From: Planctomycetota bacterium
Lineage (GTDB): Bacteria > Planctomycetota > Phycisphaerae > Phycisphaerales > SM1A02
Length of the DNA: 64,000 bases
Direction: 5' to 3'
Assembly: GCA_022574595.1 (NCBI GenBank)
Contig: JACZRS010000002.1
Span: 248,001-312,000, forward strand
Shown: piece after piece, positions 6,360-35,299 of the stretch
How positions within the stretch are numbered: position 1 is the first letter of the stretch
How the letters are laid out: every line of letters begins with the position of its first letter
Notes under the pieces: model-generated
Told to the model about the DNA's origin: nothing
Seen by the model: only the letters and a program-made list of their open reading frames with translations
Databases searched by the model: none
Made by a program: the position numbers and the translations under genes

Positions 6360-6926
6360 ATGAAAGTGAAACACCTAATAATACTACTTGCAGCAGCAGC
6401 AACTCTAAGCAGCGCCCCAGCTTACGCCGACCTCGGTGATCAACTCTTCAAGCTCCTGCCAAACGACGGGGCGAAGAGGGCCCGGTTCGGCGTCTCCGTC
6501 GCGATCAGCGGCGCCACCGCCATCATCGGGGCCTACCACGACGACACCTCCGGCTCCGCATACCTCTTCGACACCACCACGGGTCAGCAGATCGCCAAGC
6601 TCCTGCCTAACGACCGCGGGCAGTTCGACAAATTTGGCATCTCGGTTGCGATCAGCGGCACCACCATCATCGTCGGGGCCTACGATGACGACGACAGCGG
6701 CTTGGACTCTGGCTCGGCATACCTCTTTGGCGCTGCTAGCCCTTCTGCGTGCCCGTAGGATCTTGAAGACAACGCAGTTGTGGGTGTGGCCGATCTGCTC
6801 TCGCTGCTTGTAAGTTGGGGCGCATGTCCGCCGAACGCGGACTGCTCCGCCGACTTCGATCGCGACGGCAACGTCAGCGTGTCTGACTTCCTTGACCTGC
6901 TCGCCAATTGGGGGCCGTGTGAGTAG
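6360..6926 (+). pseudogene. Decayed FG-GAP-like exported protein with in-frame amber stop before its dockerin tail
   Basis: The reading frame starts at ATG 6360 with a signal peptide (MKVKHLIILLAAAATLSS...AYA) and has two short FG-GAP-like units (FGVSVAISG..IIGAYHDD; FGISVAISG..IVGAYDDDD..SGSAYLF). It then reaches Ser-Ala-Cys-Pro followed by TAG at 6756-6758. The same frame continues for another 55 codons to TAG 6924-6926. It encodes the acidic-loop pair of a GC-type dockerin tail, ending LLANWGPCE. In the intact neighbours the residue after Cys-Pro is Trp or Ala, so a TGG to TAG change would explain the break. Only two repeat units remain, against about seven in the gene at 12351-13883, so an internal deletion is also likely. 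The region is clearly richer in G+C than its surroundings. A sequencing error is the main alternative. Confidence 0.7.
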
Positions 6927-7043
6927 AAGAAGGGGTCAGGAATCAGGTTGCTCGGAATCCGCCGAGGCGGGAGTCGGGAGTCAGGGAAGAGAAGAGATGA
7001 AAAGAGATGAAAAGACCCTCACCTCGCTTCGAGTCGCCTATGG

Positions 7044-7226
7044 AGACCCAACCCTCTCCCGGGAGGAGAGGGAGCAAGAAAATGGCATCGAGCGAAGAAG
7101 GCTTTTGGCGCAAGCGAATCGGAGCCTGCCTTTCTTGCCAAGCTCGAAGGCGACCCCATAGACATCGAGAAAATCCTTGATGCCAAGGCTTTGCGTATTT
7201 TCGGACCAAGAACAAATGGAGTCTGA
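7044..7226 (+). pseudogene. Probable 3' remnant of an unknown gene, carrying a palindromic repeat
   Basis: In the frame ending at TGA 7224-7226 the last ~45 codons read as plausible protein (…AFLAKLEGDPIDIEK, …ALRIFGPRTNGV). There is no start codon or ribosome binding site upstream. Translated back, the frame enters a CCCTCTCCC…GGAGAGGG palindrome (about 7051-7071), giving PNPLPGGEG, the same type of repeat found inside cstA. The simplest reading is a truncated gene end joined to a repeat element. I do not recognise the family. Confidence 0.3.
7051..7071. repeat. CCCTCTCCC palindromic repeat, copy 1
   Basis: The sequence CCCTCTCCCGGGAGGAGAGGG has near-perfect dyad symmetry and belongs to the same family as the copy inside cstA at 26714-26752. 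It sits in the decayed stretch between the FG-GAP pseudogene and the haloperoxidase-like gene. Confidence 0.5.
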
Positions 7227-7650
7227 TCACTTTCGATTCAATGAAATAACTGCCAAATAGGCCAAGTAAAGCCTATTTACCTTTGATGGCTAAATAAATC
7301 TTCATTTACCTTGACAAACTTGTCACTTTTAGCCTTGGCGCAGAGTCAAGACAGGGTGTAATATCTCCTTGTCGAGTTTATATTCTCAATAGGTATATCT
7401 CGCTGATTTTGGGATAATCAGGCTCGCTAAATATCCGCAGCAAGAAGAGCGATGGCTGCGGTAATGGAGGAGAATCAATCCAGCTATAAACGGCTGGTCC
7501 TATAGGGTAATTACTACCGGGCGGTCATTGACCATTGGTGATCCATAGTGTTGTAAACATAAACATCGCCTAGTGGAAAAAGAGCAAAGGATAATCGAGT
7601 AGCTCCCTCGATTAAAAGATCGACATATACAAGCAGGAAGAGGAAGTATC
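7227..7650 (+). promoter_or_regulatory. Long upstream region of the haloperoxidase-like gene
   Basis: About 420 bp without a credible gene. It contains an 8-bp inverted repeat AAATAGGC…GCCTATTT (7255-7278). A possible promoter has TTGGCG (7335-7340), a 16-bp spacer and TGTAAT (7357-7362). Two small hairpins lie in the putative leader: CCGCAGC…GCTGCGG near 7434-7460 and CCAGC…GCTGG near 7480-7497. No riboswitch class that I know matches. The promoter call is tentative. Confidence 0.3.
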
Positions 7651-9765
7651 ATGAAGAAGCTAATCATCAGTAAACGTAACTGGCTTAGTGCATTTGCCAG
7701 TAAGGCAAAAACAACAATTGCGCTTGTTCTAGCAGCGACTTTTGCCTCGCTGGCAACTTCTACATCAGCAGGCCCTCCACCACAAACTGTTGCAAGGCAA
7801 TGGAATGAAGCAATGCTTAATGCCATTCGCCATGATTACGCAAGGCCCACCGTCCACGCTCGTAATCTCTACCACGTTTCTGTGGCAATGTGGGATGCAT
7901 GGGCGGTGTATAGCGCTGATGCGGATCAGATCATCTTTCACGAAAAATCTGATCAAATAGATAACTCATCTGCACGCAGAGAATCTATCAGCTTTGCTGC
8001 GTACCGGGTATTAAATGCTCGATTCGCAAAATCACCAGGCGCAGATATTACAATTCCCGTCTTCGATAACCTGATGGATACGCTTGGTTATGACAAATCA
8101 TTTACAGGCACAGTAGGAAGTTCACCAGCAGCTATAGGCAACCGCTGCGCAATCGCAATCCTATCATTCGGCTTTAATGATGGCGCAAACGAACAAGGTG
8201 GATATGTAAACCAATATTACTACCCAGTCAACGAGCCACTACTTCCAGACTTCCCCGGCAACCCCGATTTAACCGAGCCCAACCGCTGGCAACCACTGGC
8301 ATTGGAATGGTTCAAAGACCAAGGTGGTAATATAGACCCAGGCGGCTACCCAGAATTCCTCAGCCCCGAATGGGGAATCGTAACTTCATTCTCACTTAAA
8401 ACTGAAGACTTGACTATTTACCAGCGTGATGGTTTTGACTATTGGGTATTCCACGATCCCGGACCGCCACCACACCTCGGCACTAAAACCGAATACTACT
8501 ACAAATGGGGCAATGAGCAGGTCTCAATCTGGTCCAGTCATCTTGATGCAACCGATGGCGTAATGTGGGATATCTCACCTGCCACGATCGGAAATTCAAT
8601 TCTACCTGATCCCGATGACTTTGAAGCCTTCTACGACCTCTTTAATGGTGGCGACTGGGGCACTGGTTACGATGTCAACCCTTATACTGGTAAGCCATAC
8701 GCACCCCAAATTGTCCCACGAGGCGACTATGCAAGAATTCTCGCTGAATTCTGGGCGGATGGTCCCGATTCAGAAACACCGCCCGGACACTGGTTCGTTC
8801 TGCTTAACTATGTAAATGATCATCCACTACTTGAAAAACGATTTGGCGGCGAAGGCCCCATTATTGCTGATCTACAGTGGGACGTCCAGGCCTACGTCCT
8901 TATGGCCGGAACCATGCACGATGTAGCAATCGCTGCCTGGGGTATAAAAGGCTGGTACGACTACATTCGTCCGATTTCCGCTATAAGATACATGAGCGAC
9001 CTTGGACAATGCACCGACCCCAAAGCACCTAGATTTGACCCACAGGGGATTAACCTGAGACCAGGATTTATTGAACTTATTACGCCTGAAACAGCAAAGA
9101 CTTATCACTCACACATAGCGGGCAAGAATAACGAGAACATTGACAAGATTGCCATCCTGGCGTGGCGCGGTCATGATTATATTAATGATCCGGATATAGA
9201 TGTTGCTGGTGTAGATTGGATTCTTGCGGAAAACTGGTGGCCCTATCAGCGACCCACCTTCGTAACGCCCCCATTTGCAGGATACGTCTCAGGGCATAGC
9301 ACTTACAGCCGAGCTGCAGCCATAATCATGTCGACGCTAACCGGAGATGAATACTTCCCCGGAGGAATAGGTGAATTTTTCTGCCCGCAAAATGAGTTCC
9401 TCGTCTTTGAAGATGGACCATCCATGGATGTAACTCTCCAATGGGCCAAATACAATGATGCCAGCGACCAATGCTCGCTTTCACGAATCTGGGGCGGAAT
9501 CCACCCAGGTGCTGATGACCTGCCCGGACGAATCATCGGGCAAGAGATCGGGCCTGATGCGTTCTGCCATGGAGCTAAAATCTTTAACGGTCAAATCTCC
9601 TGCCCAGCTGATATCGATGGTGATGGCGGCACGGGAGTCTCAGACCTTCTTGCACTTTTCGCAGTTTGGGATTCACAAGATTGCTACGCAGATATCAATG
9701 GCGACTTAATTGTTAATACATCAGACATCATAGAATTGTTCGCCAATTGGGGGCCATGCCCGTAA
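7651..9765 (+). CDS. Secreted vanadium-haloperoxidase-like / PAP2-superfamily enzyme with GC-type dockerin tail
   Basis: A 704-residue protein with a signal peptide ending near ATSTSAG. The complete PAP2/vanadium haloperoxidase signature is present in order: K433-x6-R440-P, then S547-G548-H549, then S611-R612-x5-H618-x3-D622. In the family these residues hold vanadate or phosphate and the last His is the covalent ligand. This indicates a vanadium-dependent haloperoxidase or a related phosphatase acting outside the cytoplasm; which of the two cannot be read from sequence. The last ~55 residues are a tail with two acidic Ca-loop-like units (ADIDGDGGTGVSDLLALF; ADINGDLIVNTSDIIELF) ending NWGPCP. 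This is presumably a surface-sorting signal shared with its neighbours. A ribosome binding site (GGAAGAGGAAG) precedes the ATG. Confidence 0.85.
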   Translation: MKKLIISKRNWLSAFASKAKTTIALVLAATFASLATSTSAGPPPQTVARQWNEAMLNAIRHDYARPTVHARNLYHVSVAMWDAWAVYSADADQIIFHEKSDQIDNSSARRESISFAAYRVLNARFAKSPGADITIPVFDNLMDTLGYDKSFTGTVGSSPAAIGNRCAIAILSFGFNDGANEQGGYVNQYYYPVNEPLLPDFPGNPDLTEPNRWQPLALEWFKDQGGNIDPGGYPEFLSPEWGIVTSFSLKTEDLTIYQRDGFDYWVFHDPGPPPHLGTKTEYYYKWGNEQVSIWSSHLDATDGVMWDISPATIGNSILPDPDDFEAFYDLFNGGDWGTGYDVNPYTGKPYAPQIVPRGDYARILAEFWADGPDSETPPGHWFVLLNYVNDHPLLEKRFGGEGPIIADLQWDVQAYVLMAGTMHDVAIAAWGIKGWYDYIRPISAIRYMSDLGQCTDPKAPRFDPQGINLRPGFIELITPETAKTYHSHIAGKNNENIDKIAILAWRGHDYINDPDIDVAGVDWILAENWWPYQRPTFVTPPFAGYVSGHSTYSRAAAIIMSTLTGDEYFPGGIGEFFCPQNEFLVFEDGPSMDVTLQWAKYNDASDQCSLSRIWGGIHPGADDLPGRIIGQEIGPDAFCHGAKIFNGQISCPADIDGDGGTGVSDLLALFAVWDSQDCYADINGDLIVNTSDIIELFANWGPCP

Positions 9766-9800
9766 AGAAGGCAAAAGACAAATAAAATAAAACTTCAACG

Positions 9801-9827
9801 CCCACGGATCCCAATCCGTGGGTTTTT
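9801..9827 (+). terminator. Intrinsic terminator after the haloperoxidase-like gene
   Basis: Perfect 9-bp stem CCCACGGAT / ATCCGTGGG with a four-base loop (CCCA), followed by TTTTT at 9823-9827. It lies 36 bp past the stop codon of the haloperoxidase-like gene. Confidence 0.9.
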
Positions 9828-9972
9828 AATATAATAAACGGCACATAGGCACCATGGCGCATTGGCATCTGGCGCAGCCCGCTTCAGCGGGCAGCGTCTC
9901 AGTGAACACAACCCAACGAGCAATCCCGATGCCACGATGCCTTGATGCCACGATACCACTATGCCTTCTTTA

Positions 9973-12051
9973 TCACGGGCACGGCCCCCAATTGGCGAAG
10001 AGAATTAATAGATCGTTTGTATCGACAGTACCACTTTCATCAAAGTCGGCTGGGCCTGCTGTACCCCATTGAGCAAAGAGTTCAAGCAGATCACCTGTAC
10101 CAACGGATCCTGAGCCATCAAGATCCCACGGGCAGGGCGATTCAGTTTGAAACTCATATGCGCCTATGTCCACAATGGGCGGATCGCCGAATCCGGTGTC
10201 TTTAGTCGCTGGATCATCAACAAATCTCGGGTTGCCATCAAGATCGGTCGTGATGTCCATGGGCACAGCGATGTTGTCAGCAGCGTCGATGCAGAGTGAG
10301 CCGGGCGACAGGTTGTAGTCATCGTTGCTCGGATCGACGAAGAGCGGATCGGCGTCGATGTTACCTGTGCCTGCGAATCCGCCCTGCACGTCGCTGTAAC
10401 TAACGGTTGCTGCTCCGCTGATCTCGTTGGGGCTGTTGCCCCAGAAAATGCAGTTGGTCACTGTTGGGTTACTGCTAGAGCTGTATATCCCGCCTCCGTT
10501 GCCTAAGGCTGAACCATTTGTGCTTAAAGTGCAGTTGATCAGCGTTGGGTTGCTGTTAATGGCGTTATACATAGCTCCGCCGTTGCAGTCGGCTGCGATG
10601 TTGTTTGTAAACTTGCAGTTGGTCAACACTGGACTGCTGTTGTGGTTAAAAATCCCGCCGCCATCTAAATGCGAATTATTTTGTGTAAACACCGAATTGT
10701 CAAGCGTAGGGCTGCTGGCGTTGTTATACATCCCGCCACCACCGCCGAATACGCTGTTGCCACTGAATATGCAATCAGTCAATATTGGGCTGCTGGCATC
10801 GTTTCTCATTCCGCCGCCAAAGCCACCGGCGATGTTGTCGGTGAAGCTGCAATTAAATAGCGTTGGCGTGCTGTTGAAGGAGTTGTACATCCCGCCACCA
10901 TTGTTAGAGTTGTTACCACTAAAAGCACAGTTGGTTAGTGTGGCAGTGCTTGCATGGTTGTACATCCCGCCCCCTCCGCCACTAGAAGTGTTCTCGCTGA
11001 ACAAGCAGTCTGTCAGCGTTGGGCTATTGGTGTTGTTATACATCCCACCGCCGATATTGTTTGCTGAGTTGTTCGTAAATTGACAGTTGCTCATCGTTAT
11101 ATTGCTGAGGCTTATGTTATAGATTGCGCCGCCTGTGTCGCTGGCCGTATTACCTGCAAATGTACAGTTGGCTAGCACTGGGCTGCTGCTGAAGCTATTG
11201 TACATCGCTGCGCCATCGAGTGCCGTATTCTCGGTGAACGAGCAACTGGTTAGTTCTGGATTGCTTGCTTGGTTGCGCATTCCAGCACCTTTCCCGAATA
11301 TGCCAGGTGCGCTATTCCCGCTGAAGGTGCAGTTAAATAGCATGGGGTTGCTGCCGTTATTGTACATCCCTCCTCCACCAGTAGAACCCGTAGCCATATT
11401 ATTGATAAACGTGCAGTTGGTCAGTGTGGGGCTGCTGTTGTCGCTATTATACATTCCGGCGCCAGTAGTTGCCTCATTAGAATTGAAAGTACAGTTAGTT
11501 AACGTCGGGTTGCTGTCGAATCGGTTATACATCCCGCTTCCACTGAGTGCGGTATTATGGCTGAATAAACAATCAATCAGCGTTGGATTGCTGCCGTCTT
11601 TGCTATGTACTCCGCCGCCCCGTGCTGCCGCATTCCCTACGAACACACAGTCGGCTATGGTGGGACTGCTGAACTGCATCAACATTCCACCCCCTTCCTG
11701 CACATAACCACCTCCAGTAATGGTAAAGCCTTGCAGGATGGTATCTGCGCTTTCAAACGTTACAAAACTGACAACGGTTGTCTCGAGACCTGTTGCATCA
11801 ATTACGGTTAGCACAGGGCCGTCAGTGCTGTAAACCGTGATTGCCTTGCCCAGGAAGTTGATGGTCTCGTTGTAGGTGCCCGGATGGACCTCCACCTCGT
11901 CACCATCCACAGCTGCAACGATGGCTGCCTGAATGGTCGGGTAGTCGCCGGGGACGTGGAGTATGTCGGCGGCGGCGGGAGATGTCCCGCCAATGAGGCA
12001 GAAACTAATCGCAACGACTGCTTGGATTGTGAAGCTTGACTTGAACCACAT
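9973..12051 (-). CDS. Exported beta-helix repeat protein with GC-type dockerin tail
   Basis: A 692-residue protein with a signal peptide (…VVAISFCLIGGTSPAAA). Next comes a segment typical of right-handed parallel beta-helix proteins (VPGDYPTIQAAIVAAVDGDEVEVHPGTY, an entry module also seen in pectate-lyase-like folds). Then follow about 15-20 repeats of roughly 20-22 residues built on GGGMYN, N(S/N)SPTLTNC and F(T/S)GN. The pattern resembles chlamydial polymorphic outer-membrane-protein repeats. A pectin-lyase-fold end cap (DADPLFVDPSNDDYNLSPGS) precedes the dockerin-like tail ending LLILFANWGPCP. It is probably a surface adhesin or structural protein; no catalytic residues are apparent. A strong GGAGG lies 7 nt before the ATG. 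The repeats create long open frames on the opposite strand, which are not genes. Confidence 0.88.
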   Translation of the reverse strand: MWFKSSFTIQAVVAISFCLIGGTSPAAADILHVPGDYPTIQAAIVAAVDGDEVEVHPGTYNETINFLGKAITVYSTDGPVLTVIDATGLETTVVSFVTFESADTILQGFTITGGGYVQEGGGMLMQFSSPTIADCVFVGNAAARGGGVHSKDGSNPTLIDCLFSHNTALSGSGMYNRFDSNPTLTNCTFNSNEATTGAGMYNSDNSSPTLTNCTFINNMATGSTGGGGMYNNGSNPMLFNCTFSGNSAPGIFGKGAGMRNQASNPELTSCSFTENTALDGAAMYNSFSSSPVLANCTFAGNTASDTGGAIYNISLSNITMSNCQFTNNSANNIGGGMYNNTNSPTLTDCLFSENTSSGGGGGMYNHASTATLTNCAFSGNNSNNGGGMYNSFNSTPTLFNCSFTDNIAGGFGGGMRNDASSPILTDCIFSGNSVFGGGGGMYNNASSPTLDNSVFTQNNSHLDGGGIFNHNSSPVLTNCKFTNNIAADCNGGAMYNAINSNPTLINCTLSTNGSALGNGGGIYSSSSNPTVTNCIFWGNSPNEISGAATVSYSDVQGGFAGTGNIDADPLFVDPSNDDYNLSPGSLCIDAADNIAVPMDITTDLDGNPRFVDDPATKDTGFGDPPIVDIGAYEFQTESPCPWDLDGSGSVGTGDLLELFAQWGTAGPADFDESGTVDTNDLLILFANWGPCP

Positions 12052-12350
12052 CGCTCAACCTCCTTAAAGGTAGAGGTCGCAAAGTGGTAGCACCTGCAAA
12101 AAGTCTATGGCCGCCCCGGAGACAGGTGTCACCCCAGCAACCACCACCATACTATCGCGCCCGCCCATTATTTGGAAGATTTCTTAGCAAAGGCGGGGAT
12201 TTGAGGGTTAAATCCAGCGTACAGGCTATCTGGTGGCATTATCTGCTTTGTGCAAGATCAAAACTTGGTTGAGCAACTCTGAAAATCGGCTGGAATATGG
12301 GCGCACAATCTAACCTACGCGCGCGTAGTCAAGATGTTTACACCTGCTTC
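12052..12350. other. Intergenic region upstream of the beta-helix gene
   Basis: About 300 bp between two minus-strand genes. It presumably holds the promoter of the beta-helix gene, but no box pair stands out. Frames here are short and lack ribosome binding sites. The sequence CTACGCGCGCGTAG (12315-12328) is a 14-bp perfect palindrome that could bind a dimeric regulator; this is only a suggestion. Confidence 0.4.
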
Positions 12351-13883
12351 CTACTTCGGACACGGCCCCCAATTGGCGAAGAGGATTAGTAGGTCGGTGG
12401 TGTTGACTAGGCCGTCACTGTTAAGGTCGGCGGGGCTTTGTGGGTTGGGACCCCACTGGGAGAATAATGCTAGTAGATCGCTGGTATTTACTGATCCATC
12501 ACCATCAAGATCGGCTGGGCATAGACATGCGCTGAGGTCGTAGGTGTAGGCTGCTCCCGCAGAGGGCGCTATTTCATCATCACCATGCGAGCCGATTATT
12601 GCTAGATTGCCACTGATGGATACCGATCGGCCGAAATCATCCAAAGCACCAGGATCAGATGCGGTCAGCTTGGCTTTTTCTAACCACGAATCAGTCTTAG
12701 GATCGTATTGAAATAAATATGCAGAACCCGAATCACATCCCGGATCCTCAGGACAAGCATCATCTTCCAGTCGCGCTCCCACAAGAATTAAATCGTTGCT
12801 CATAGATATGGATCCGCCAAGTTGATCGTTGGGCTGGGCATCTGATGCGGTTAGCTTATCTATTTCTGTCCACAAATCGATCTTAGGATCATACTTAAAT
12901 ACATATGCAGCGCCAGTATTCATCCCCCAATCATCATCGCCTATTGTTCCAATTACTACTAGATCATCGCTTAATGATACTGATGTAAAAAAATCATAAT
13001 CCTCGGCATCAGATGTTGTAAGTTTGGCTTCCTCGTTCCACAATCCTGTTTTAGGATCGTACTTAAATACATAGGCTGACCCAGCATATACGACCATATC
13101 CTTATTATTACTATCTCCAACAATCACAGCAACATCGCCTCTGACCGCAACTCCCCGGCCAAAGCCAGTCACTGTTGTACTGTCAAACGCAGAAAGTATG
13201 GCTTCTTCAACCCATTCATTGCTTTTGGGATCTTTACGAAATACATAGGCAGAACCTGCGATCTCTTCTCCAAAATTCTTTTCAGGCACACCGATAACCG
13301 CCACATCACCGTCAATCGAAAGAGCAGAACCAAAGCCATCACCTTGCGCAGTATCAGATGCGATCAATTTATCCTCTTCGATCCATTGCGATAGTTCGGG
13401 ATCAAATCGAAACACGTAAGCTGAACCAGAGTTGCAGAACTCCGGACTGTTAGGACAAGCCTCGTTATCAGCTGGAGCTCCAATGACTACCACATCGCCG
13501 TTTATAGAAACTGCAAAGCCAAATAGATCACCGAATTGACCAGGTTCAGCATCGGAAGCCGTGAGTATTTCTTGTTGTGTCCATGTCCCACTTAAAGTGT
13601 CGAATTGATAAACGTAAGCAGCTCCACTGTTATTTCCTATAGCGTTGTCTCCATAAGCTCCTACTACAGCAAACTCCCCGCTTATTGAGACTGAATACCC
13701 AAATAAATCACTATTCACCCCATCATGCAATGTGAGTTTTTCTATTTCACACTGACCCCACACACTATTTCCAAAAGTAAGCAGACAAACAAAAGCGGAA
13801 AGAGTGAAATATGCGCAGCGTCTAATGAGGAGACGCTCCATAGCTGCTAGTAGCCTCCATAGATTTTCTAGATATCTGCACAT
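12351..13883 (-). CDS. Exported FG-GAP-like repeat protein with GC-type dockerin tail
   Basis: A 510-residue protein with a signal peptide and about seven ~55-residue units of the form (D/E)LFG.SVSI.GD.AVIGA..D…GSAYVF..DP…W.E..KL.ASD. This is the FG-GAP-like, beta-propeller-forming repeat found in many surface proteins. The C-terminus carries the paired acidic-loop tail and ends ANWGPCPK. It is the intact relative of the decayed gene at 6360-6926. Two starts are possible. Position 13883 has a well-placed GAGAGG; position 13841 (MERLLIRRCAYF) gives a more standard signal peptide but its GGAGG lies 12 nt upstream. Function beyond surface display is unknown. Confidence 0.85.
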   Translation of the reverse strand: MCRYLENLWRLLAAMERLLIRRCAYFTLSAFVCLLTFGNSVWGQCEIEKLTLHDGVNSDLFGYSVSISGEFAVVGAYGDNAIGNNSGAAYVYQFDTLSGTWTQQEILTASDAEPGQFGDLFGFAVSINGDVVVIGAPADNEACPNSPEFCNSGSAYVFRFDPELSQWIEEDKLIASDTAQGDGFGSALSIDGDVAVIGVPEKNFGEEIAGSAYVFRKDPKSNEWVEEAILSAFDSTTVTGFGRGVAVRGDVAVIVGDSNNKDMVVYAGSAYVFKYDPKTGLWNEEAKLTTSDAEDYDFFTSVSLSDDLVVIGTIGDDDWGMNTGAAYVFKYDPKIDLWTEIDKLTASDAQPNDQLGGSISMSNDLILVGARLEDDACPEDPGCDSGSAYLFQYDPKTDSWLEKAKLTASDPGALDDFGRSVSISGNLAIIGSHGDDEIAPSAGAAYTYDLSACLCPADLDGDGSVNTSDLLALFSQWGPNPQSPADLNSDGLVNTTDLLILFANWGPCPK

Positions 13884-31764: not shown

Positions 31765-31927
31765 ACTCAAAATCAGCCCAATAAGGCACTTTCTGATGGA
31801 TTTTTCAATGAAAATCACAGATTCGCAACAGAATTAGCAGCCAAGTTGGGAATCAACACGAAGAAGATACGGTTAGAGGCTGTTATTCTAAGTATGATGT
31901 TTGTGTAGAAATCGATGGAGTTTCCCT

Positions 31928-33514
31928 ATGCTCAGGAGAACCCATTTGCCCACTAAGAATTCTTGCTGCGATCCTGTGAGCAAGGCGAATGTATATCTGC
32001 GCCTAGGTGCTACTGCTACTTTTTTAGCTGGGCTGGTAACTGCGTCAAGTTTCGGCCACTCTGCTCCGGTTCGCAATTATGCGCCGCAGCAAGTAACTGA
32101 TCCTGCTAATACGCAAGATCCTCTTTTCTATCCTAGGGCCACCGGTCGCGCTAGGCCGGGCGATTCTCCTGTGGATCAACTTCTGATTAAGTTCCTGGAT
32201 CTGCATACCGCAATGAAATACCAGAGTGCCGTTGAAGTTGCCAGGCAGATTGTTCAATTGCGTCCTGAGCATAAGGATTCACATTACAACCTTGCCTGTG
32301 CGCTAGCCAGGCTTGATCGATCAAAGCATGCGCTTGACGAATTAAAACTCGCAATCGACTTCGGTTGGCGCGACACAACGCATCTAGCATTAGACCCAGA
32401 TCTGGATAGCATACGACATAATCGTCGTTACATTGTATTACTAAAAAATATTACCAAGCTCACCATTTTGGAGAGAGTTGTTCCAGGTAAATTGCGAACT
32501 GAGTCTTGGGAAGAGATTGCTGAGGATTTATCACAAGATATTCCCTCATTAATGAAGCGATACCATGTGCCCGGCACATCGGTTGCGCTTTTGCGAAATG
32601 GTCAAGTTGTATGGAACACGGGGTTCGGCGTACAGGACTTAAGTACTGCTAATCCGGTAGATCAATATACAGTGTTCCCTGCACCGGGTTCGGATCAGTT
32701 GTTTGCAGCAATTGCAACCATGCAGCTATACGAACAAGGCTCATTAGTATTCTCTACAACAAACCAATCAAACCAAACAAGCCAACGGATTCTGCCGGTT
32801 GTTCTAAGGACAAGTGTATTAGATCAAGAAAGTGAGCAAGATGGTTGGCGTGTTGGACGGTTAACTTTGTTTGCCAGCTCTAAAGGTCTAAGCAAAGTTA
32901 GAAGCAATGAATCCGGTTGGGTAAATGCAATACCTGCTGCTAGCGCAATGACGCTATCTTTGCAAAAAGACCCACGCGTTAAACCACAAGGATATTTTGC
33001 AGCTATTGCTGCGGTCGAAGCGATTTCGGATCAACCCTTTGCAGAGTATTGTCAGGAAAATCTTTTTAAGCCTATCGAGGCGAATAGAACTTGGCTAGGT
33101 ATTCCAGAAACTGATGAAGATGCTCAAATTGCAACCGGATATAGCAGACTCACCACGCCGGTTACACAATCGCTTGCATTAAGTGATTCTTCCTTAAATG
33201 TGCATTGTACTTCAACCGATTTAGCACGATTGATGACGCAGCTGATGTTCGAACCCCCCGGGGAATCAACAACACTATTGGATAATGTCACAATTATGCA
33301 ATTAGCTCAAGTTGCTAAAGACTTTGGCTTTGATGCTTCGGTTGACCATGCTGCGGATGCACTTCGTATGCAGCTTCACAAGGTTTCCAACGGCGCTGGT
33401 ATGTTAATGCGTTGGTACCCCTCCCAAAGATGCGGCATAGTCGTTCTCTACAACAGCGAAACCGGACACGATGCAGCAATCCGCATAGCCCACCAAGCCC
33501 TAGGCGGCTCCTGA
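31928..33514 (+). CDS. TPR plus serine-beta-lactamase-fold protein with a lost catalytic lysine
   Basis: A 528-residue exported protein. After a basic start and hydrophobic segment (LGATATFLAGLVTASSFG), residues ~75-165 hold a short TPR region (SAVEVARQIVQLRPEHKDSHYNLACALARLDR), and residues ~185-525 the class C beta-lactamase/DD-peptidase fold. In that family the nucleophile motif is S-x-x-K. Here the equivalent position reads S255-D-Q-L258, so the general-base lysine is missing. The Y-x-N and H-x-G motifs are also not evident. It is therefore probably a binding pseudoenzyme or decaying gene. Start 31928 is chosen for the GGAG 7 nt upstream; a TTG at 31901 would extend it by nine residues. 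Confidence 0.75.
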   Translation: MLRRTHLPTKNSCCDPVSKANVYLRLGATATFLAGLVTASSFGHSAPVRNYAPQQVTDPANTQDPLFYPRATGRARPGDSPVDQLLIKFLDLHTAMKYQSAVEVARQIVQLRPEHKDSHYNLACALARLDRSKHALDELKLAIDFGWRDTTHLALDPDLDSIRHNRRYIVLLKNITKLTILERVVPGKLRTESWEEIAEDLSQDIPSLMKRYHVPGTSVALLRNGQVVWNTGFGVQDLSTANPVDQYTVFPAPGSDQLFAAIATMQLYEQGSLVFSTTNQSNQTSQRILPVVLRTSVLDQESEQDGWRVGRLTLFASSKGLSKVRSNESGWVNAIPAASAMTLSLQKDPRVKPQGYFAAIAAVEAISDQPFAEYCQENLFKPIEANRTWLGIPETDEDAQIATGYSRLTTPVTQSLALSDSSLNVHCTSTDLARLMTQLMFEPPGESTTLLDNVTIMQLAQVAKDFGFDASVDHAADALRMQLHKVSNGAGMLMRWYPSQRCGIVVLYNSETGHDAAIRIAHQALGGS

Positions 33515-33533: not shown

Positions 33534-33713
33534 TAATTAATTAGCCCCAGGTGAATACACCTGGGGCGAAGTGCGCTCGCCTACTTTGTTACGTTCGATC
33601 CCGCAACAAATCATGGTATGCCAAAGATTACTGTGTTTGTGCAGGTCATCTGAAAATCGCACGCTCTCCGCCCGCCGTGTATTCACGGCGGGCTAAATGG
33701 GGATGTAGTTTTT
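33534..33713. repeat. Twin-hairpin repeat, copy A
   Basis: A ~180-bp unit with two 10-bp perfect hairpins: GCCCCAGGTG-AATA-CACCTGGGGC (33544-33567) and GCCCGCCGTG-TATT-CACGGCGGGC (33670-33693). The central decamers GTGAATACAC and GTGTATTCAC are reverse complements of each other, so the two hairpins carry the same core in opposite orientation. A second copy lies exactly 971 bp downstream at 34505-34684. Confidence 0.9.
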
Positions 33714-33755
33714 ATCTGGCCCATTAAGTGTATTGTTGGCATATACTTTCTTGCC

Positions 33756-34499
33756 GTGAAACGCCGCCTATTCAAACTTGCATTGTTTCTTATTCTCGGC
33801 GCGATAGTTAATGTCGCCGTGGCGTGGGGGTGTGCAAAATGGATAAAATTAGATTATCGAGTGAATACAACGGGTTCTAGTAGTGGCTATCCATATGGTG
33901 AGGATATTGCTGTTGTCATAATGCAGTCGAAAGGGGCGATGTTGATAAAATCGAACTTGACAATTGACTGGGACAGCATTGAGAAAAGATGGGTGCCCTT
34001 CAATCCAAGGAGCGAGATGAGTGAGCGAACCAAAGCGGCGATCGATATCAGTGCACGATATAAGTTTGTTCATCCCTCCCATGCCAATCTACAAGAAATG
34101 AAAGGTGTTATAAGAGTTCTAACAGCCCACGGTTGGCCGAGACTGGCTCTTTGGTCCGGATACGAAATAGGATACGGGGGCGATGGTCCCAGTAGCAAAC
34201 CTAGAGGCTATTGGACAATCTGGTCAGGAATGCGTATATCTGGCACACAACACGATTATTCAGTAGGACTTAATGCCGTTCCGCGATCGTTACCCTATCG
34301 CCCCATCTGGTCGGGCTTTGCAATCAACACGCTATTCTATGCTGCGATTCTTTGGATTTTGTGGTCAAGTTCATCTGCTGCGAGGAGACTCATCCGCCGC
34401 AAGCGCGGGTTGTGCATCAAATGCGGTTACGACTTGCGTGGAAATTCCGGGGGTGACGTTTGCCCGGAATGTGGTATCACAATTACCGCCCCCAACTAA
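33756..34499 (+). CDS. Membrane protein with C-terminal CGYDLRG zinc ribbon, unknown function
   Basis: A 247-residue protein starting at GTG 33756. It has an N-terminal membrane helix (residues ~6-28), an outward-facing domain of about 160 residues without recognisable family (PSSKPRGYWTIWSGMRISG), and a second helix (residues ~190-210). The C-terminal tail is cytoplasmic with four zinc-ligand cysteines: C-x2-CGYDLRG…C-x2-C. This ribbon is very common in Planctomycetota proteins. The gene is bracketed by the two direct copies of the twin-hairpin repeat, 42 bp after copy A and 5 bp before copy B. Confidence 0.75.
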   Translation: MKRRLFKLALFLILGAIVNVAVAWGCAKWIKLDYRVNTTGSSSGYPYGEDIAVVIMQSKGAMLIKSNLTIDWDSIEKRWVPFNPRSEMSERTKAAIDISARYKFVHPSHANLQEMKGVIRVLTAHGWPRLALWSGYEIGYGGDGPSSKPRGYWTIWSGMRISGTQHDYSVGLNAVPRSLPYRPIWSGFAINTLFYAAILWILWSSSSAARRLIRRKRGLCIKCGYDLRGNSGGDVCPECGITITAPN

Positions 34500-34504
34500 T
34501 TAAT

Positions 34505-34684
34505 TAGTTAATTAGCCCCAGGTGAAAACACCTGGGGCGAAGCGCGCTGGCAAACTCTGTTACGTTCGATACCGCAACAAGTCATGGTATGTCAACAATT
34601 ACTGTGTTTGTGTTCATTATATGGAAATCGCACACTCCCCGCCCGCCGTGTATTCACGGCGGGCTAAATGGGGATGTATTTATT
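34505..34684. repeat. Twin-hairpin repeat, copy B
   Basis: Direct repeat of 33534-33713 with about 20 mismatches in ~165 aligned bases and no gaps until its last bases. Hairpin 1 has loop AAAA instead of AATA; hairpin 2 is identical to copy A. It begins 5 bp after the stop codon of the bracketed gene and ends 39 bp before the stop codon of the converging gene at 34724. Confidence 0.9.
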
Positions 34685-34723
34685 TATCTCACCGCCAGAA
34701 ATAACTCCTTTACAGTTTCAACT

Positions 34724-35299
34724 TCATGCTGCGGCTGGTGCAGCATCTTCAGTATCAAACAATTCCGACATCCGATTTGTGCTGTTAGCAGTTGACCACA
34801 TAGTCTCGAGTCCCACTGCTGATCTAAACGCAGCATTATCTGCAAGCTGCCAAAGTACAATTTGTGATTGTTGGATTTGCTGCTCATTGATTGGGCTGGC
34901 GTCCAGCTGCGTCCTGCGAAACGCAGCCAGAGCATCAGCAATTCCAGCCCGCATGGACTCATTTACGGTTTCGCCAACATCATGAGTCTGGTCAAGGAAG
35001 TCCAGTAGTCCCTTTAGCGCCACAGCAGATCCTGCTAAGGATTGGGAGAAATGCCCGTTAGTTCGCTGCATTTGTGTCAATCTCATAGCAAGTTCTGCTG
35101 CCAGGGGAGTGGGTGCGTAAGTCAGTTCGCAACACCTTTGCAAAGCCAGGCCAAAGGCTGCTGCCTCAACAGCGTCTGATCGCATAAGCAGCATCGAGTG
35201 TCCCGTGCTAATGCTCCTCCCATTAGCTAGGATTCGCTGCACAAGCCTCTCGTAAACTTCATGGCGAATCATTCGATCAATATGGTTGAGGCTAATCAT
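34724..35299 (-). CDS. Hypothetical helical protein
   Basis: A 191-residue protein I do not recognise. It is rich in Ala, Leu, Gln and Ser, probably all-helical, and has no signal peptide or membrane segment. It has a repeat-like middle (SLAGSAVALKGLLDFLDQTHD) and an acidic-Ala C-terminus (LFDTEDAAPAAA). GAGGAG lies just before the ATG, which supports it as a real gene. It is a single gene, convergent with the repeat-bracketed gene and divergent from the GspG-like pair. Confidence 0.55.
   Translation of the reverse strand: MISLNHIDRMIRHEVYERLVQRILANGRSISTGHSMLLMRSDAVEAAAFGLALQRCCELTYAPTPLAAELAMRLTQMQRTNGHFSQSLAGSAVALKGLLDFLDQTHDVGETVNESMRAGIADALAAFRRTQLDASPINEQQIQQSQIVLWQLADNAAFRSAVGLETMWSTANSTNRMSELFDTEDAAPAAA

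Follow-up and report, generated by a model that had tools for sequence, protein, structure and literature searches.

REPIN-like hairpin pairs and a putative promoter module at the head of genes of an expanded planctomycete family

The window, i.e., the whole 64,000-nt stretch of planctomycete DNA analysed here, contains a CGYDLRG-family gene encoding a 247 aa protein (33756..34499, forward strand), which lies between two direct copies of a 180-nt repeat (33534-33713 and 34505-34684). A repeat search of the window places both copies in one family, with an offset of 971 nt and 87% identity without gaps, in agreement with the original prediction, which had also described the gene and its zinc ribbon correctly. 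Each copy holds a REPIN-like element on the forward strand (33541..33696, from the TTAG foot to CTAA, and 34512..34667) that consists of two inverted, TTAG-footed, covarying palindromes with 10-bp stems and 4-nt loops, the very inverted pair of REP-like hairpins that had been proposed. In copy 1, the outer (A) hairpin is GCCCCAGGTG-AATA-CACCTGGGGC (33544-33567) and the gene-proximal (B) hairpin is GCCCGCCGTG-TATT-CACGGCGGGC (33670-33693); those of copy 2 are located at 34515-34538 (A) and 34641-34664 (B). The predicted core decamers hold except in copy 2, whose first core is GTGAAAACAC rather than GTGAATACAC. Folded as single-stranded DNA, copies 1 and 2 have z-scores of -6.0 and -5.3, respectively, relative to dinucleotide shuffles, none of which (0/200) folds as stably.

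Copy 1 is separated from the gene by a leader (33697..33755, forward strand), a putative promoter judging by its conservation, which is found only at element-headed genes and includes a -10-like TATACT (33742-33747) 8 nt upstream of the GTG start codon. The locus is flanked on the left by a TPR/beta-lactamase-like gene (31901..33514, forward strand) and on the right by a gene (34724..35299, reverse strand) that is conserved in the related genomes G003 and G027. Behind copy 2, a 26-nt fragment (34678..34703, forward strand) matches the leader at C10:40.7 kb with a score reached by 0 of 500 shuffles and is followed by the right-hand gene, 3' end first. We take copy 2 to head a second module that no longer has its gene, with the fragment as the truncated remnant of its leader. 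Given that the 87% identity of the two window copies barely exceeds that of copies at different sites (up to 86%, the C31 pair excepted), the bracket around the gene appears to represent two modules in tandem and no recent cassette. A composite transposon was rejected, the flanking elements being only ~155 bp long with no transposase gene inside, and an assembly artefact is unlikely, with the units located inside contigs and most of them differing by 13-30%. Elsewhere in the window, the tract TTCGCCAATTGGGGGCC and its complement recur at 6882, 9721, 9976 and 12357 (within 6882-12491), resembling the coding end of a dockerin-like domain, and a 78-nt periodic repeat occupies 10460-11463.

The repeat unit recurs genome-wide. 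A covariance model search of the 4.09-Mb assembly (G000) identified 43 hairpin matches, namely 12 inverted pairs, one opposite pair and 17 singles. In the pairs, the A hairpin is mostly GCCCCAGG and the B hairpin mostly GCCCGCC, with a spacer of ~85 nt. The TTAG foot is invariant in all 30 aligned genomic hairpins, 99.7% of the stem cells in these copies are paired, and 39 compensatory double changes are observed compared to 10.6 in shuffles. Such variation of the stems by compensatory change is as expected under selection for the folded form. A search of Rfam produced no match near the gathering scores. Of the closely spaced repeat pairs in the genome, nearly all bracket either a CGYDLRG-family gene or the transposase gene.

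The original prediction noted that no transposase gene is adjacent to the repeats, which is true within the window, and proposed a search for a RAYT elsewhere in the genome; such a gene is indeed present on C31. It is the genome's sole representative of its HuH/Y1 transposase subfamily (C31:23.8-24.3 kb), lies between two hairpin pairs and encodes a small protein with the motifs H86-V-H88 and Y141. The arrangement in which repeats flank the transposase gene is conserved across Planctomycetota. In G044, the gene is located between two pairs (C156), and in G008 there are hairpins on both sides (C32); among the 22 closer relatives in GTDB genomes, nearly all of them planctomycete and one labelled Vicinamibacteraceae, most have hairpins on either side of the transposase start, ~50 bp before it and 500 bp after it, and those in the planctomycete relatives mostly carry the TTAG foot. 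Similarity to characterised transposases is limited. Pfam PF01797 scores 14 bits against the transposase (cut-off 23) and, at E<=0.1, detects 7 of 17 relatives (best 1e-7), whereas the G008 homologue scores 16 bits with both NF033573 (cut-off 55) and NF047646 (cut-off 80). A profile comparison with a bona fide Y1 protein gave a weak alignment confined to the HuH neighbourhood, and a PDB sequence search placed ISDra2/IS200 transposases at the top with E of only 0.04-0.3. Because the scores with curated models are below cut-off, the RAYT name is based on motif, size and arrangement. An IS200/IS605 insertion sequence was rejected, since the subfamily is represented by one copy in the genome and the next relatives are 26-29% identical. 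Further Y1-type genes, 26-29% identical to the RAYT, are found at C27:44368-44895 and C29:17277-17768, one of them with an in-frame TAA. Between glyA and a small gene that precedes the EF-G gene, G044 has an element-RAYT-element arrangement (L179:1023-1869) and G000, at the same position, a single REP (C21:106163-106205, L127); the transposase gene has apparently been lost or relocated.

The CGYDLRG family includes about 45 ORFs in this genome, often in tandem arrays, with a conserved N-terminal signal anchor, a variable middle part, and a C-terminal membrane segment followed by a zinc ribbon, the membrane topology being predicted; no usable structure match was obtained for the window gene. 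Eight of the 12 hairpin pairs are located upstream of a gene of this family, always with the A hairpin outward (8/8) and with 211-217 bp separating the outer foot and the start codon, and two further pairs, copy 2 of the window and the third pair on C31, are directly beside such units. The sequence shared among the eight units begins 0-9 nt before the outer TTAG in all 28 comparisons, and over the 60 nt beyond the outer foot, identity is 0.330, the same as in shuffled sequences (0.330). On the inner side, homology continues through the leader and, for most pairs, is lost 270-309 nt in, past the signal anchor. TATACT is conserved in the leaders of the headed units; the leaders of headed genes show an identity of 0.555 vs 0.334 for the other family genes of this genome. 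In four relatives, inspection of about 35 family genes revealed neither the leader nor a nearby REP. CGYDLRG genes on C4 and C5 also adjoin a duplicated 2-kb block (C4:62536-64543 and C5:36015-37982, 72% identical) with a gene whose product starts with MANxVYQIVTDRVIELLERGVVPW. ORFs with long internal repeats of a period of about 126-170 bp are found at C7:4145-5527, C26:24525-25913, C13:114208-114870 and C28:25504-26301, some of them shared between contigs at 65-79% identity.

The histories of the element, the leader and the gene body can be compared across the eight headed units. Mean identity among units is 70-90% in the element and drops to 36% in the central part of the gene. Distances between elements correlate with distances between leaders (r = 0.63, p = 0.003, a test based on eight units; r = 0.49, p = 0.035 without the unit C31g1) and show no correlation with those of the N-terminus, body or C-terminus, the coding sequence giving an r of about 0. 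In the tree of gene bodies, headed genes are scattered, requiring 8 changes compared to a shuffled mean of 7.2, and the body of C31g1 is the sister of an element-less gene on C4 (support 98/96), to which it is 80% identical over 612 bp, with both gene ends outside the match. The suggestion that the gene was duplicated or carried with its repeats is not borne out by these data, and a gene duplicated with its repeats can be discarded, the gene bodies being unrelated to the history of the elements. Because element distances track the leader only and the headed bodies are scattered, the element and the promoter leader are inherited together, with bodies exchanged beneath them, although the sharing of leaders may partly reflect selection on the promoter. 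The constant spacing between outer foot and start codon could also be explained if elements had inserted independently and site-specifically in front of family genes in which the leader was already present. This scenario is highly improbable and ranks last among the alternatives considered: leader and element have one history, and among the family genes examined in the present genome and in four relatives, the leader never occurs unless the element is there too.

We hypothesize that a hairpin-bounded module, composed of the element and the leader, spread by recombination among CGYDLRG genes, which we consider the probable, if not secure, explanation. Under this hypothesis, the window repeats would be REPIN-like elements of a TTAG-footed REP/RAYT system, one of which landed beside the promoter of a CGYDLRG gene, about 50 bp before the gene start. 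Element and leader would then have become a single module (about 215 bp) that is sharply delimited on its outer side by the outer REP foot, and the conserved first ~85 coding nt on the inner side would permit joining to other family members by homologous recombination, such that the module now heads at least eight of them. The window gene would be one such hybrid and the rear element a second module minus its gene. The outer edge could derive from RAYT strand cleavage and joining at the REP foot (single-strand cutting and joining near this foot is described for RAYTs from other bacteria; PMC8266576), and the inner edge from RecA-type recombination. The anatomy of the elements, the cognate transposase gene, the sharp outer edge, the joint inheritance of element and leader, the decoupled bodies and the absence of the locus in relatives are observed; the roles of the transposase and of RecA-type recombination in forming the two edges are inferred.

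Comparison with relatives bears on how the units reached their sites. In G003 and G027, the left neighbour of the window locus is directly followed by the right one, with neither the gene nor any repeat copy between them; the original prediction had proposed to look for an empty locus with one repeat copy, and here the locus is empty of both, in draft assemblies that, like all comparison genomes, are from outside the source genus and in which edges are not resolved to the base. In G044, the neighbours of the C25 site are present with a short gap and nothing inserted, the C2b site contains another gene instead, and the C10b site, before fabF, has one element-less family gene. These absences at the window and C25 sites would also be expected if the RAYT started at the outer REP foot and moved the element with the whole gene in a one-ended transposition, similar to ISCR-type mobilisation, with the bodies diverging or being replaced later. 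The body exchange that we attribute to the module could equally follow such whole-unit transposition, which is likewise compatible with the sharp outer edge at the REP feet in 8 of 8 units and with the REP or element found 3' of four of them. However, the other four units have no REP on the 3' side, the bodies are not co-inherited with the elements, and the family reaches 20-60 matches in relatives that lack element-linked copies (60 in G003, 41 in G044, 30 in G031 and 21 in G039), so that the absence of a locus from a site is, by itself, no proof that the elements moved the gene. We regard one-ended transposition as unlikely, albeit the first among the alternatives.

Given that relatives have expanded CGYDLRG families without the repeats, the repeats are not needed for expansion. 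Elements as drivers of family expansion were rejected on the same grounds: in G003, no REP matches were found despite the 60 family matches, and the REPs of G044 are located away from its 41 family matches. Such element-free expansion is in line with passive hitch-hiking, whereby ordinary duplication and recombination carry the element along, or the element is retained as a regulatory hairpin, the transposase being idle after the first insertion; the conserved position and orientation of the element beside the promoter fit this possibility as well. Hitch-hiking leaves unexplained, however, the common outer foot with unrelated flanks in 8 of 8 copies and the element-sized tract of 98% identity on C31, and we rank it below one-ended transposition as a rather doubtful scenario. 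This tract comes from two adjacent C31 elements (C31:22687-23762; L116:4688-5763), the leaders of which are 79% identical and the genes 57/35%. Since the elements retain 98% identity despite the diverged leaders and genes, it appears that they are also homogenised on their own. The homogenised stretch adjoins the transposase gene.

Returning to the hairpin-bounded module, the system to which it belongs is of the REPIN/RAYT kind, and the fusion of the module to a promoter and gene start is a new variant. As in REPIN/RAYT systems and REPtrons (Bertels and Rainey, 2011, PMC3116915; PMC6006769), the palindromes are short, share a conserved foot and occur in inverted pairs, dispersed with conserved structure (43 matches, strong covariation), and there are a single cognate HuH/Y1 transposase gene flanked by repeats, lineage-specific stems and element-sized copying. 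The differences are the TTAG foot in place of the GTAG (GTRG) 5' foot, the small number of copies (43), and the fusion of 8 of the 12 pairs to, and their inheritance with, the promoter of one gene family; REPINs or REPtrons carrying gene parts are not reported in PMC3116915 or PMC6006769. The GTAG-tagged REP families, which are present in Planctomycetes, similarly combine a stem-loop bearing a tetranucleotide at its 5' foot, dimers and a REP-flanked RAYT, but their feet vary at positions 2-3 (GYRG, GTMG), whereas here the first base differs; a few of these families are noted as tied to other DNA tracts, none to a promoter and gene start (PMC3733652). Two other kinds of mobile system show partial resemblance. 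One defined end and the carriage of neighbouring DNA are reminiscent of ISCR/IS91 elements, which belong to the Y2 HuH class and capture whole genes by one-ended mobilisation, unlike the system described here with its Y1 transposase and bodies that are not co-inherited. An integron cassette likewise places a gene and a folded site in tandem, but the folded recombination site (attC) is 3' of the gene and an integron integrase belongs to the system, whereas here the element is 5' of its gene and the palindromes are REP-like, solo and paired, and accompanied by a Y1 transposase.

A parallel is seen in G008, which represents another genus. Here, hairpins of the same class, mostly in pairs, are located 5-110 bp behind 14 dockerin-like genes (loci L194-L197 and L343-L353, e.g., L197:3545-3632), which belong to a family of ~140 members with a C-terminal double dockerin-like domain. 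They account for 14 out of about 19 REP clusters, an association with a chance probability of 6e-15 to 7e-11 if the family makes up 5-10% of the genes. Identity after the stop codon is 0.53 among nine REP-bearing genes vs 0.26 among 20 others. In 87 of 91 pairs the gene bodies show no relationship, and most comparisons have the homology ending on the distal side of the second hairpin. G008 is a second genus with a different family and the opposite gene end but the same logic, an independent case of this repeat class being coupled to the end of a modular family.

REPINs are usually regarded as small repeats, either selfish or regulatory, that move on their own. We tentatively propose, as a speculative extension, that the planctomycete TTAG-type RAYT/REP system might serve to shuffle gene ends, whether selected for this or only incidentally: REP pairs would cap terminal modules, comprising the promoter and signal anchor in G000 and the double dockerin-like domain with the 3' end in G008, cleavage at the foot would set the outer edge of the copied piece, and expression and targeting modules would be redistributed among expanded modular families. 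The same repeat class is seen here in two genera, at opposite gene ends, where it is co-inherited with the conserved terminus of an expanded gene family and delimits the common segment on its outer side. The analysis also exposes a very large, lineage-specific membrane-protein family with fixed ends and hypervariable middles. If the transposase is involved, a domesticated transposase would be linked to the shuffling of domains and the exchange of promoters in bacteria, and the role of RAYTs in their hosts would become testable.
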